Under the pieces are notes generated by a model. That model was not told where the DNA came from and did no database searches. It worked only from the letters and a program-made list of their open reading frames with translations. Both the position numbers and the translations under genes were made by a program. A stretch of DNA of 8,330 bases, from the NCBI GenBank assembly GCA_003353825.1, contig PIVW01000255.1, positions 1 through 8,330 on the forward strand. The letters run 5' to 3'. The stretch comes from Chloroflexota bacterium (GTDB taxonomy: Bacteria; Chloroflexota; Anaerolineae; J102). Positions 1,491 to 6,972 of this stretch are shown here, in pieces. Positions within the stretch are counted from its first letter, which is position 1, and each line of letters opens with the position of its first letter.

Positions 1491-1517
1491 AAAAAAACTC
1501 ACCGCAATACGGTGAGT
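1491..1517 (-). terminator. Intrinsic terminator inside the leader (attenuator)
   Basis: On the minus strand ACTCACCG (1517-1510), loop TATTG and CGGTGAGT (1504-1497) form a perfect 8-bp stem running straight into seven Ts (1497-1491). It sits 43 nt before the carrier start, in a divergent intergenic region. No minus-strand gene ends there, so its natural role is premature termination of the carrier-E1 transcript. On the plus strand the hairpin lacks an adjacent U-run. Confidence 0.85.
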
Positions 1518-1712
1518 CGATGTTTTGGCTATTTCCAAGTCAGGCGCCTAAAAGAATGCGTCACTTGATGGTAAAATATAATGGTTCGAACGAACTACGC
1601 GACTCACCGCAACTGTAACGTTGGCGGGGCAGTCGGCTTCTTTGGCCGGCTACGCCCGCTCCATACAGGAGCAGGTGAAGCAAAATGCGGGTGATGCGTA
1701 GAAAAACATGTT
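1510..1712 (-). ncRNA. Riboswitch-like leader RNA of the carrier-E1 operon, unrecognised class
   Basis: A transcript starting near 1712 can fold into a closed domain at 1701-1595. The outer stem is CTACGC (1701-1696) with GCGTAG (1600-1595). It continues after an internal loop as CACC/GGTG and GCA/TGC (1693-1686 with 1611-1605). Inside are a hairpin GCTCC-TGTAT-GGAGC (1672-1658) and a second GC-rich hairpin (about 1657-1625, loop CAAAGAA). The first loop, TGTA (1667-1664), can pair with TACA (1617-1614) as a pseudoknot. The 3' strand of the closing stem, CGGTGAGTCG (1609-1600), is also a perfect 10-bp partner of CGACTCACCG (1519-1510), the 5' arm of the terminator. A stable aptamer would therefore free the terminator (OFF), and opening it would give an antiterminator (ON). 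I see no match to the TPP, SAM, FMN, cobalamin, Moco, T-box or glycine consensus. The ligand is unknown. Confidence 0.65.
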
Positions 1713-1718
1713 GGCAGC

Positions 1719-1747
1719 AGTGTAAGTGTTTGTACGGCTTCTGTCAA
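1719..1747 (-). promoter_or_regulatory. Sigma70-type promoter of the carrier-E1 leader
   Basis: The minus strand carries a perfect -35 TTGACA (1747-1742), a 17-nt spacer and -10 TACACT (1724-1719). This predicts transcription from about 1712, about 10 nt before the 5' strand of the closing stem of the folded leader. Spacing and placement agree with the attenuator model. Confidence 0.7.
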
Positions 1748-1837: not shown

Positions 1838-3109
1838 ATGCAGCGAAAGGCTCGACGACAAAACATCTTCATACGCTGGATGGCGCTACTGACTGCGTTG
1901 CTGCTAGTGGGTATGCAGCCGCTTCAGCCACCGCCGACTGTGTTTGCTAACGCGCCTTTTCCAGACACGGAACTCTTTCTGATTCAGGAATCGAGCCAGA
2001 CACAAAGCTCAACCTCTCTGCAACCTGTGCTGTCCGGAAATTTCCGCTGGCTTGATGTCGCCGATCAGCCTTATAGCGTCTCCTATCGAAGCGGTTACGA
2101 CTATAGCCACGCCCAAGTTGAGCTAACTTATGCCACGAACGCCCCAACCTTTCAGGGTACTTTAATTGCGCAAAATCTCAAACCGAATTTCGCCTATCAA
2201 ATGAAGCTCGAGGGATTAAGTGGTACCTCCGAGAACGAGTGCATCGGCCTGAGTGGCCGTTGGTGGGAAGAGGAATGGAGCGGTATTTCCTGGTACAATG
2301 GCAGGAATCTAAACAACAAAGGAGATGGTGCTGCTCCGAATCCTAATGATGAGGTTTACTTCAGCCATCGTGATGAACTGTGGACTGCGGACCCTCCCAT
2401 ACCGAGATATAAACACAGCGGCTATCTGGTGCTTGCCTACTTCGTCACAGATGAAAACGGCGATGCTACGGCGCCATTTACAGCTGACAGCAGCTATCAT
2501 GTTTTGTGGAAAGTGTCGCAGCGCCCACACAGTGTGTCAGACGGACCTCTCATCACCGCCACATTTGATGCCGATGCCTCTGATGCTTATGATGATTCGG
2601 GTGGGGACGATTTTCCTTTGAAAGTGACGCAGGTATTTGGGGAATGGGAGCGATTGCCGGTTGGTGGTGTGACGTTACGAAGTGGCAATTATGCTGCTTC
2701 TCTGTTTCTAACTGAGGAGTCATTCCATGGCAGTGGGGGCAGTTTCGCCGGTGTTTGGGCCGCGGCGATGTATGCACCTGTGAGTTTTGCCATTGCCGGT
2801 GATGCTGTCGCCCCCGAGCCAATGTCGACCTCTATCTCGGGCGCTGACCTCACCCTGGCATGGCCAGCCAACCCCGCCAATGCTGCTTACAAACTTTACC
2901 AGGGCACTGCCCCATATTTTGATCCTGTCCCGCCCGCCGATCTCGGCCCTCTATCACCCTACACCCAAAGCATCACTATCGAGGGCGCAGTGGGTGATGG
3001 CGCGGCCAACTATTTCTATGTCGTCCGGGCACTGAATTGCAGCGGCGAAACGGCTCGGTCTGCAACTATCGGGGTTTTTGCCTTCAGCCTGGTGGCCGGT
3101 AGGTCATGA
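1838..3109 (+). CDS. Secreted protein with C-terminal fibronectin-III-like domain, function unknown
   Basis: This 423-residue protein begins with a Sec-type signal: basic QRKARRQNIFIRW, hydrophobic MALLTALLLVGM (15-26), then a likely cleavage near VFANA (35-39). The start at 1838 keeps the basic n-region; an in-frame ATG at 1880 would lose it, though no good SD supports either. Residues about 60-330 contain a module with LIAQNLKPNFAYQMKLEG (109-126), a Trp-rich stretch (141-153), GYLVLAYFVTDENGDA (195-210) and SSYHVLWK (218-225), spacing that suggests an extracellular beta-sandwich. Residues about 330-420 resemble a fibronectin type III domain (LTLAWPANPA, YKLYQG, NYFYVVRALNCSGETARS), ending in FAFSLVAG, a tail style I associate with Chloroflexota surface proteins. 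No catalytic motif and no LPXTG-like anchor is visible. It is divergent from the carrier operon and convergent with the JAMM gene. A role in the neighbouring sulfur-carrier pathway is not implied. Confidence 0.85.
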   Translation: MQRKARRQNIFIRWMALLTALLLVGMQPLQPPPTVFANAPFPDTELFLIQESSQTQSSTSLQPVLSGNFRWLDVADQPYSVSYRSGYDYSHAQVELTYATNAPTFQGTLIAQNLKPNFAYQMKLEGLSGTSENECIGLSGRWWEEEWSGISWYNGRNLNNKGDGAAPNPNDEVYFSHRDELWTADPPIPRYKHSGYLVLAYFVTDENGDATAPFTADSSYHVLWKVSQRPHSVSDGPLITATFDADASDAYDDSGGDDFPLKVTQVFGEWERLPVGGVTLRSGNYAASLFLTEESFHGSGGSFAGVWAAAMYAPVSFAIAGDAVAPEPMSTSISGADLTLAWPANPANAAYKLYQGTAPYFDPVPPADLGPLSPYTQSITIEGAVGDGAANYFYVVRALNCSGETARSATIGVFAFSLVAGRS

Positions 3110-3164: not shown

Positions 3165-3797
3165 CTAAACCAACTTGATGGCTACCGGTTCGACCGACAC
3201 CACGCGTACGTCAAACTTCCCCGCCCCCTCCTTCTGGTACACGACATAAAGCGCCAGCCCCAGCGGTAGGTCGAGATGGGTGAGGCTGGCCGGGGTTGGG
3301 GCCGTGGTCGAGAGATAGGCGCCCCAGCGCCCGGGCCGTGTTTCATCGAAAATCAGGTCGCCCCGTATTACATCCAGGTCGATGTCACCTCGATGCTGGC
3401 GCAGGTGAAAACCATTTAGCACAGGGTTGTCATCATCCTTCAGGGAACAAATAAGATACACAGCGTCCGGATAGTAGGCATTGTAGGCATCGGAGGCTGA
3501 AGGATAGGCGGGGCTGAGGGGATGGCTGTGGTAGATGGCGATCAGTTCGCCACCTTCGTCCTCCCACTGGAATTGAACCAGCAGGGCGGCGGGGTCGATC
3601 TCATAATCCATGATGCGATTTAGGGCGACATTCCAGGCTCGCCGTATATCGCTAACGACGTCGTCTTTGCCACGCAGTAACCCGCAAATTTCCTCTGGTT
3701 TGCCCTCGCGGGCGTGGGTGATGATGGCGTCGTGGATGGAGGTGGGCAGAAGGAGTGAGCGAGAATGCTCGGCGTTAGTTAAGTTGTTAGCAGACAT
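3165..3797 (-). CDS. JAMM/MPN+ metallopeptidase (Mec+/QbsD-like), predicted carrier-tail processing enzyme
   Basis: The 210-residue product carries the full JAMM zinc-protease signature: Glu36 in PEEICGLL (34-41), then His90-Ser-His92-Pro, and Ser100-x-x-Asp103, that is HxH-x7-SxxD. The fold region runs from about residue 15 to 137. A further 70 residues (from about 140), including the segment DETRPGRWGAYLS, form an extension longer than in minimal Mec+ proteins. The family cleaves isopeptide or peptide bonds after the C-terminal glycine of ubiquitin-like proteins; bacterial members release cysteine from CysO (Mec+) or trim a carrier tail (QbsD). The tailed carrier at 1161-1448 and the E1 at 1-1032 make trimming, with or without amino-acid release, the best guess. 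The start ATG follows GGAG about 11 nt upstream. The gene is on the same strand as the carrier operon but separated from it by an opposing gene, and divergent from the toxin-antitoxin pair. The substrate is not proven. Confidence 0.92.
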   Translation of the reverse strand: MSANNLTNAEHSRSLLLPTSIHDAIITHAREGKPEEICGLLRGKDDVVSDIRRAWNVALNRIMDYEIDPAALLVQFQWEDEGGELIAIYHSHPLSPAYPSASDAYNAYYPDAVYLICSLKDDDNPVLNGFHLRQHRGDIDLDVIRGDLIFDETRPGRWGAYLSTTAPTPASLTHLDLPLGLALYVVYQKEGAGKFDVRVVSVEPVAIKLV

Positions 3798-3885
3798 GTT
3801 ATTTTTGCTCCGTCAATCCAGAAAGCCTTGTGGTGGGCAGGGAAGAGCAAAGATGACTTGTCAGGTTATTTGCCGCCCTGGTCAA

Positions 3886-3910
3886 TTATACACAGCTGAG
3901 CTGCGTATAA
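3886..3910. promoter_or_regulatory. Palindromic operator upstream of the antitoxin
   Basis: A 25-bp inverted repeat with 12-nt arms, TTATACACAGCT and AGCTGCGTATAA, separated by one G, has one mismatched pair per arm set. It ends 2 nt before the antitoxin ATG at 3913. RHH antitoxins autorepress through such palindromes, with the toxin as co-repressor. On the minus strand the same bases contain TATAAT (3890-3885), a potential -10 for the divergent JAMM gene, although no convincing -35 is seen. Binding could therefore affect both directions. Confidence 0.7.
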
Positions 3911-3912
3911 AA

Positions 3913-4158
3913 ATGTGGCTTTTTCGGAATTTGTGTATTAGCCAGACACATCTTTATGGTTTGCTGAAACAGTCTGCCGAAATAAATCGCCGCAGTATCA
4001 ATAGTGAAATCATTATCTGCATTGAAAAAGCTGTGAGTAGCCGGCAGGTAGAAATCGAAACGGTCTTAGCGCGAGCAAGAGAAATACGTGGAAGAACGAA
4101 AAACCATTTGCTGACAGAAGATGAAATCGCGCAGGCAAAGATAGTAGGACGGCAATGA
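3913..4158 (+). CDS. RHH (FitA-like) antitoxin of a VapBC-type module
   Basis: This is an 81-residue protein. Residues about 3-42 match the ribbon-helix-helix pattern of FitA/VapB antitoxins: a short strand (FRNLCIS), LYGLLKQSAEINRRSINSEI (14-33), then helix 2. The C-terminal half (about 45-81; REIRGRTKNHLLTEDEIAQAK) is the charged segment that in this family wraps and inhibits the PIN toxin. The open frame extends far upstream, but ATG 3913 is chosen because it places the RHH strand at the N-terminus and directly follows the palindromic operator. The first residues, MWLFRNLCIS, diverge from the usual TLTVRNLP strand. There is no strong SD; GAG lies 12 nt upstream. Its stop overlaps the toxin start as ATGA, giving translational coupling. 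Base composition is visibly AT-richer than the flanking genes, which suggests transfer. Confidence 0.85.
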   Translation: MWLFRNLCISQTHLYGLLKQSAEINRRSINSEIIICIEKAVSSRQVEIETVLARAREIRGRTKNHLLTEDEIAQAKIVGRQ

Positions 4159-4559
4159 TCGTAGTAGATACGAATGTAATTGCATATCTGTATTTGAGCA
4201 ATGAACGCTCGCAGCAGGTTGAGCGTTTGTTAGAAAAAGATTCAGAATGGGCAGCGCCTTTGTTGTGGTGGAGTGAATTGCGTAATGTGTTGGCTCTTTA
4301 TATGAGAAAGGAAATCTTGTCAATACAAGAAGCGCAACAAGTGATGGAGAAAGCCAGTTTTTTGATGAGCGGGCGGGAATATGATGTCGCATCGTTCCGG
4401 GCGCTAGAATTAGCCGCTTCAAGTGCATGTTCAGCATATGATTGTGAATTTGTGGCATTAGCGCAGGAATTAAGGAAGCCGTTAGTAACGGTTGACAAAA
4501 AAATCTTGAAAGAGTTTCCGGACATCGCGGTATCATTGGCTAAATTTGTTGGTTTGTAG
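4155..4559 (+). CDS. vapC: PIN-domain ribonuclease toxin, VapC family
   Basis: This 134-residue protein has the four conserved acidic positions of VapC toxins: Asp5 in VDTN, Glu41 in SELRNVL, Asp96 in AYDCEFVALA and Asp114 in TVDKKI. These bind divalent metal for endoribonuclease cleavage, usually of tRNA or rRNA; the target here cannot be told. The length is normal and the domain appears intact, so it is probably functional and must be held by the upstream antitoxin. AGGA lies 5 nt before the ATG, within the antitoxin 3' end, and the ATGA overlap couples the two cistrons. The operator before the antitoxin is the likely control point. No clear terminator follows. AT-rich composition and isolation between unrelated genes suggest a mobile stress or addiction module. 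Confidence 0.93.
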   Translation: MIVVDTNVIAYLYLSNERSQQVERLLEKDSEWAAPLLWWSELRNVLALYMRKEILSIQEAQQVMEKASFLMSGREYDVASFRALELAASSACSAYDCEFVALAQELRKPLVTVDKKILKEFPDIAVSLAKFVGL

Positions 4560-6885: not shown

Positions 6886-6972
6886 GTGTCGTGTGTCGTG
6901 TGTCGTGTGTCGTGTCGTGTCGTGTGTCGTGTGTCGTGTGTCGTGTGTCGTGTGTCGTGTGTCGTGTGTCGC
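6886..6972 (+). repeat. Heptanucleotide tandem repeat (GTGTCGT)n downstream of murJ
   Basis: The tract reads as four GTGTCGT units, two shortened GTCGT units, six more GTGTCGT units and a final GTGTCGC. It starts 25 nt after the murJ stop and ends 17 nt before a good promoter. It is not self-complementary, so it is not a hairpin terminator, and there are no spacers, so it is not CRISPR. Frames through it give only low-complexity peptides. Copy number is expected to vary between strains through slippage. Confidence 0.97.

Follow-up and report, generated by a model that had tools for sequence, protein, structure and literature searches.

In the trp, his and leu attenuators of Proteobacteria, the regulatory codons of a leader peptide choose between an antiterminator and a terminator. 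Cys-rich leaderless short ORFs reportedly occur in mycobacteria, as Canestrari is said to have described in 2020. For cysteine, the one other predicted attenuator with an intrinsic terminator that we found in the open-access literature is the uORFC-8-2 motif, which lies upstream of cysS in Rhodobacterales and is a predicted ribosome-mediated attenuator according to the accessible part of PMC8632094. The parts of PMC1262725 and PMC4633059 at hand describe, respectively, actinobacterial Cys leader peptides that lack conserved terminators and Cys-rich leaderless short ORFs in mycobacteria; PMC13236596, in its available section, cites Canestrari 2020 on mycobacterial Cys-rich leaderless small ORFs. 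The thiS motif, or HMP-PP riboswitch, precedes thiS sulfur-carrier genes and involves a terminator (PMC6478431, accessible part), and some cysteine and methionine genes of Chloroflexi have been assigned to SAM riboswitches (PMC3766115, accessible part). The accessible parts of PMC2965389 and PMC3766115 contain no Chloroflexi leader peptide, and among the matches listed the open-access literature held no description of the element presented here or of any Chloroflexota cysteine attenuator.

Based on comparative and folding analyses, we propose that the leader ahead of a moaD-type operon is very probably a ribosome-mediated transcription attenuator that senses cysteine via tRNA-Cys charging. The window, i.e. 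the whole stretch of DNA analyzed (8,330 nt), carries this leader on its minus strand. A sigma-70-type promoter, TTGACA-N17-TACACT (1747-1719), retains 10 of 12 consensus bases and is present where the initial annotation placed it; the 1001-base region holds two promoter-like sites against a mean of 0.9 in shuffles. A Cys-rich uORF that was overlooked in that annotation spans the leader at 1709-1650 and encodes 19 residues, MFFYASPAFCFTCSCMERA, from an ATG at 1709-1707 to a TAG stop codon at 1652-1650. Direct reading of the sequence places its regulatory Cys codons at 1682-1680 (TGC), 1673-1671 (TGC) and 1667-1665 (TGT), all on the minus strand and all within or adjoining the strand that sequesters the antiterminator. 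This strand 1, TTCACC-TGC-TCC-TGT (1679-1665), includes the C-x-C codons and forms a covarying helix with strand 2, TGCGGTGAGTCG (1611-1600). Between them an inner hairpin, GCGGG (1659-1655) with CCCGC (1628-1624), spans 1659-1624 and encloses the uORF stop codon. An outer stem, CTACGC (1701-1696) with GCGTAG (1600-1595), closes the 5' domain at 1701-1595; its 5' side consists of uORF codons 3-5, and the stem, already drawn in the initial annotation, is part of the minimum-energy fold. The same annotation had pointed to two copies of TTGCGGTGAGT, which indeed lie at 1612-1602 and 1507-1497, and to a terminator ahead of the sulfur-carrier gene, which is a 10-bp hairpin at 1518-1496 formed by strand 3, GACTCACCG, and strand 4, GCGGTGAGTT (1505-1496), with a T run to 1491. 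The antiterminator it described does exist, but comprises 12 bp (strand 2, 1611-1600, with 1519-1508) rather than 10. Sequence and folding bear out the competition that had been envisaged, in which antiterminator, strand-2 sequestration and terminator are mutually exclusive pairings; the possible TGTA/TACA pseudoknot, of four bases, is not required by this scheme.

The 5' domain, 121 nt long, has a folding energy of -47.0 kcal/mol (z -3.6; 0 of 200 shuffles equally stable), and the whole leader has a z of -2.6 (3 of 200 shuffles equally stable). The Rfam comparison that had been suggested found no family at gathering level in the window and, up to E 10, three unrelated matches only, the best at E 0.13; the T-box (RF00230) gave no match in the window, and the leaders of 11 related loci gave no Rfam match. 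Cobalamin, TPP, SAM, Moco, T-box and thiS/HMP-PP classes, being without an Rfam match in the window, were dropped. The thiS/HMP-PP riboswitch is not among the window's matches to E 10, a result that counts only if Rfam 15 includes the family. The single T-box leader of the 11 related loci (RF00230, 115.8 bits) is that of L052 (1118-1344, minus strand), away from its cysteine leader.

The first gene of the operon is a moaD/ThiS-family sulfur carrier gene (1448-1161, minus strand; Pfam ThiS), whose product also gives an NCBIfam SAMP1 match barely over the cut-off. It is followed by a moeB-type adenylyltransferase gene with a rhodanese domain (rhodanese-ThiF/MoeB; 1032-1, minus strand), which extends beyond the window. 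A JAB/JAMM protease gene is located at 3165-3797. The protein closest to the window MoaD is 97% identical, and the closest named ones belong to Caldilineales and Caldilineae MAGs. An in-frame upstream ATG of moaD is found at 1487, directly past the terminator T run; a 97% identical protein (P0001) is annotated with an N-terminal extension matching this ATG, and the other homologues favor the ATG at 1448. Elsewhere in the window, a 423-aa ORF without a Pfam or NCBIfam match at E 0.001 occupies 1838-3109 on the plus strand and starts near the attenuator promoter in the opposite orientation; an Arc-like DNA-binding fragment and, after it, a PIN-domain protein (3952-4559) resemble a toxin-antitoxin pair; and a row of short TGTCG/TGTGTCG-type repeats (6888-6970) lies between murJ and a small gene.

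The window MoaD was aligned with 35 homologues; 87 genome-contig places encode relatives, and the best 80 of these were taken as loci. Of the 80 loci, 68 have a moeB relative downstream of moaD, at a distance of up to 800 nt from the moaD start in 63, and 32 have a JAMM relative on the upstream side of moaD, counts that include several short loci; among the 51 loci with a leader the figures are 49 and 25. All eight loci tested contain cysM, either as the next tested ORF past moeB (L005, L023, L048, L055, L036 and L052) or one ORF further (L001 and L020), the intervening ORF of L001 being sulfurtransferase-like. The eight candidates all score below the cysM equivalog cut-off and six of them above the cysKM cut-off. 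In L001 a second leader (MHYPLTCICL) stands ahead of a cysK gene that scores well over its cut-off. The mycobacterial CysO-MoeZ-CysM pathway ties MoaD-, MoeB- and CysM-like proteins to cysteine. Because a Cys uORF precedes it, the moaD-moeB-cysM operon would, by analogy, serve cysteine synthesis through a CysO/MoeZ/CysM-like route rather than molybdopterin or thiamin.

The uORF recurs in relatives. Under a rule that called for TGY, an optional codon, a second TGY, a stop no more than nine codons further on and an upstream start codon, with an added CGGG filter that was waived for three loci, a Cys uORF was found in 51 of the 80 moaD loci (best 80 of 87) and in the window. Examples of the peptides are MKFCAHLAFTHTCSCMERA (L001), MREQRQATYLKTCSCP (L005), MLPVVSVCTCICL (L023), MLNVLTNAICCCICCMRAR (L048), ..MCCICCRRAP (L053) and MICQLIALKCVCIKRGR (L055). 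By the same rule 29 of the 80 loci have no such leader. These include L038-L040, L045, the loci with an Ardenticatenia label and those whose labels name other phyla; two loci with this result have short upstream DNA (L044, 108 nt; L046, 176 nt). Together with 24 leaders from the genome search described below and the cysK leader of L001, the 52 moaD-side leaders (window included) make a set of 77. A C-x-C near the stop is present in 77 of 77, under a picking rule that allowed C-C too. The codon between the paired Cys codons is variable (TCG, TCC, ATC, TTG, ACC or GTT), and the Cys clusters vary as well (CCCICC, CCICC, CTCIC, CCSC). Cys makes up 202 of 1173 uORF residues (17.2%) in the 77 leaders; its share is 1.2% in long ORFs from these loci and 6.5% and 2.2% when the leaders are read in their two alternative frames. 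This enrichment is partly built in, because the selection rule included Cys. Comparison of 20 independent pairs of closely related leaders yields 62 codons with a single change, of which 35 are synonymous, whereas uniform mutation predicts 24% (p 4e-8); codon positions 1, 2 and 3 changed 37, 42 and 64 times. Past the uORF stop there is no third-position excess (35, 23 and 27, in the pairs still alignable). By these substitution patterns the uORF evolves as a coding sequence under selection.

In the window the uORF ATG lies 9 nt past the end of the -10 box, and the transcript is predicted to start at the ATG or 1-3 nt before it, i.e. to be leaderless or nearly so. In 30 of 58 representative leaders, against 1.6% of shuffles, the 75 nt ahead of the uORF start include a strong promoter; the other 28 show none. 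The -10 box stands 6-12 nt from the uORF start in 12 of the 30 and 27-45 nt from it in the other 18. An SD-like word is present ahead of 13 of 58 uORFs, compared with 31 of 35 moaD genes. The short spacing and the few SD-like words make it probable that the clade of the window uses leaderless or near-leaderless uORFs. Short Cys-containing frames also stand before moaD in Bacillota-labelled MAGs (L068, L071 and L080); that of L068, VCICTSAHSPAEVCRRE (3835-3906), begins six bases past a TATAAT and has no T run ahead of moaD. Frames of this kind are possibly an independent leaderless Cys uORF without an intrinsic terminator.

Do the four strands hold together across leaders? In a swap test on 58 representatives, in which kinship was reduced and some remains, own partners pair more stably than swapped ones for 2:3 (-24.2 versus -20.4 kcal/mol), 1:2 (-18.1 versus -15.5 kcal/mol) and 3:4 (-23.7 versus -14.2 kcal/mol), with 0 of 5000 permutations in each case; the linker ahead of strand 3, taken for comparison, reaches only -13.7 kcal/mol. 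The own strand 3 is the top partner in just 2 of 58 leaders (median rank 14 of 57). Anchoring of strand 2, which picks the best of several offsets and is biased toward pairing, succeeded in 53 of 58 representatives and failed in 5; one 2:3 position is A-U in 35 and G-C in 12, and rarer double changes occur at pairs 3, 4, 5, 9 and 10. The 1:2 helix shows compensatory changes (U-A 17 and C-G 10; C-G 14 and U-A 7) at the last base of the codon before the C-x-C and in the codon between the two Cys codons, which are sites where the peptide tolerates change. On an alignment of 35 leaders (A2), obtained from the 52 moaD-side leaders after 13 were left out by script and then L019, L037, L048 and L055, our structure pairs 87% of cells and has a covariation score of 0.205; shuffles give 0.157 (0 of 500), and sliding the structure never yields more than 0.134. 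The structure given by RNAalifold was set aside, as gap placement led it to misplace the CCCGC arm. GCGGG is invariant in A2 and the other invariant columns fall within codons or stems; the inner loop differs between leaders in both sequence and length, and longer, different hairpins replace the inner one in L031, L041, L042 and L052. Covariation in relatives, which the initial annotation had proposed to look for in the 1701-1595 stem and the inner hairpins, is seen in the 1:2 helix and also in 2:3; the GCGGG/CCCGC helix has no compensating change in A2, with 75% of its cells paired. Of the 77 leaders, 76 have a hairpin of -11 kcal/mol or lower next to a T run, compared with 139 of 770 shuffles, and the terminator lies 103-231 nt past the uORF stop. 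Automatic strand assignment chose wrong partners in a few leaders (e.g. L005, L008, L009, L035 and L065), and these were kept in the Cys counts, the swap test, the ribosome-masking calculations and the terminator-hairpin counts.

An open genome search was carried out with a covariance model, R1 (89 positions), built from the A2 leaders with our own structure. The downstream gene plays no part in a match, and neither frame, start, stop nor downstream gene is built into the model; the Cys codons partly are, because it contains TGC/TGT bases. R1 recovered 31 of the 39 genomes holding leader loci. It misses seven with a Cys uORF by rule (L031, L041, L048, L053, L055, L065 and L066), which thus share the design but hardly or not at all the sequence, and also L059, which is without a uORF. 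In 199 genomes of one Chloroflexota class, that of the genome of L010, 36 matched under strict filters that lose weak matches and with rough E-values; the 43 rows, one of them antisense of another, correspond to 42 places. Thirty-nine of these precede moaD (16), moaD-moeB fusions (3), cysK (13) or cysM (7), and 37 have a short Cys uORF (moaD 16, moaD-moeB fusion 3, cysK 11, cysM 7). Two further places, L117 and L140, lie before cysK and carry a Cys-containing frame of greater length; the remaining three matches (L111, L139 and L141; 25.5-27.1 bits) look like chance. The 37 uORF-bearing places comprise 13 known moaD loci and 24 new ones. Among 301 control genomes across the phylum, R1 matched at E 0.001 in two, both within the class sample, and one match at E 0.01, a partial one, came from 151 genomes belonging to the class of L076 (Acidobacteria by label). 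Twenty-four genomes from 25 leader-negative moaD loci gave three matches, one cysK leader and two weak ones. One genome (G158, also that of L061) has a leader at cysK (L132) and none was found at its moaD. These sequence comparisons demonstrate the uORF and its coding conservation, the four covarying strands, the terminator and the link to cysteine genes.

We suggest the following mechanism. RNA polymerase would start at, or directly before, the uORF ATG. With ample Cys-tRNA, the ribosome would pass the Cys codons to the stop and leave, and strands 1 and 2 would pair, with the inner hairpin between them; strand 3 would then be available to strand 4 and transcription would end before moaD. When cysteine is short, the ribosome would stall on the C-x-C codons and cover strand 1, leaving strand 2 free to capture nascent strand 3, so that no terminator forms and moaD-moeB, with cysM in relatives, is transcribed. 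Without translation 1:2 would presumably form and the operon would be off. The effect of a stalled ribosome on pairing is supported by folding calculations that mask the RNA as far as a ribosome positioned at the first C-x-C codon. In transcripts ending at strand 3, the mean hold of strand 2 on strand 3 over 77 leaders rises from 0.35 in free RNA to 0.75 in the stalled state, with a rise above 0.1 in 59 of 77 and a fall in none. In full leaders the mean terminator occupancy declines from 0.78 to 0.56; at equilibrium the drop exceeds 0.1 in only 26 of 77 and there is a rise in 2, so the rest must rely on co-transcriptional folding. For the full leader of the window, terminator occupancy is 0.88 in free RNA, in line with the off-by-default state that the initial annotation had assumed, 0.37 with a ribosome stalled on the first C-x-C codon and 0.88 with a ribosome at the stop. 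The window departs from the 77-leader mean for transcripts ending at strand 3, with 2:3 at 0.91 free and 0.87 stalled, which in this model points to refolding at a later step or to a degree of leakiness. With a ribosome at the stop, 2:3 stays high in transcripts ending at strand 3 (mean 0.67); therefore the ribosome must leave before strand 3 is made. The 103-231 nt from stop to terminator may provide the time for 1:2 to reform after ribosome release. The response to cysteine itself is a prediction.

Could the leader instead be a metabolite riboswitch of an unrecognized class, as the initial annotation held? The 5' domain would be the aptamer, and a ligand would stabilize 1:2 and hence termination. 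Such a reading draws on a 5' domain that is closed, stable and conserved, with GCGGG invariant in A2, and on a terminator present at several operons, while the lack of an Rfam match leaves room for a new class. However, the invariant bases are Cys-uORF codons or stem bases, the loops vary, and no conserved unpaired ligand pocket is found among the invariant A2 columns. Coding selection on the uORF, Cys clusters that differ in frame between leaders, the replacement of the inner hairpin in the four leaders named above and the cysteine-making role of the regulated genes all tell against an aptamer, and we consider it extremely improbable.

Two other explanations accept the uORF. Its peptide might act as an arrest peptide or redox sensor, through nascent C-x-C thiols or a metal, instead of through codon-level stalling. 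A C-x-C near the stop in every one of the 77 leaders, able to oxidize or bind metal, is what such a peptide would have; yet the residue between the Cys and the preceding residues are variable, and forms such as CCCICC, CCICC and CCSC occur, whose extra Cys codons fit tRNA supply. This explanation is very unlikely. That the uORF merely couples translation to moaD, the hairpin being an ordinary transcript end or the control being translational only, has a precedent in the mycobacterial Cys uORFs without conserved terminators (PMC1262725, accessible part), but has next to no probability here: the hairpin stands 103-231 nt past the uORF stop, adjoins a T run far above shuffles and has a 5' arm complementary to strand 2, and in 31 of 35 cases an SD-like site belongs to moaD itself. 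We regard the element, with high probability, as a real and conserved cysteine attenuator that is ribosome-mediated and not a riboswitch.

How does the attenuator compare with the systems described before? As in the trp, his and leu type, regulatory codons here would decide between antiterminator and terminator. Unlike in that type, strand 1 is the regulatory codon stretch itself, and strand 2 of the window begins ~41 nt past the stop codon, so that a ribosome at the stop leaves strand 2 uncovered; we infer that the off state, in contrast to the trp/his/leu type, is set by 1:2 refolding. The uORFC-8-2 motif likewise has two conserved Cys codons in its first stem and a terminator-like U run, but is set apart by its description, in the accessible part of PMC8632094, as an element of Alphaproteobacteria with a cysteinyl-tRNA synthetase gene, tandem CC and two stems. 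The genes downstream here are moaD, cysK and cysM, not cysS, and the motif is C-x-C, not tandem Cys. With the mycobacterial short ORFs, as far as the available parts of the sources go, the uORF shares Cys richness, a place near the 5' end, a position before cysteine genes and, by prediction in the clade of the window, a leaderless start; it differs from those of PMC1262725 in its four competing strands, its intrinsic terminator and its occurrence in Chloroflexota instead of Actinobacteria. The thiS motif/HMP-PP riboswitch (PMC6478431, accessible part) is similar in its downstream sulfur-carrier gene and its terminator, but the operon here would belong to cysteine and not to thiamin. What is new is a family without an Rfam match or an earlier description found in Chloroflexota; the attenuator type is known.

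What are the implications of such an attenuator? A conserved fold before a terminator without an Rfam match is not yet a riboswitch, and a uORF should be checked for first. Beyond the locus, we tentatively envisage, at somewhat less than even likelihood, a class-wide Chloroflexota cysteine regulon in which a leaderless or near-leaderless mRNA opens with a Cys-sensing uORF that feeds a terminator attenuator; a 70S ribosome would load at the 5' end, the Cys codons would be the pairing strand and the GCGGG hairpin would time the off-state refolding. If true, a leaderless Cys uORF of the mycobacterial type would be combined with a terminator switch of the trp type, and MoaD, MoeB-rhodanese and CysM, probably with JAMM too, would be marked as a cysteine pathway of Chloroflexota. 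A large, mostly uncultured class would in this way be given a concrete cysteine regulatory signal and a function for its sulfur-carrier operon.
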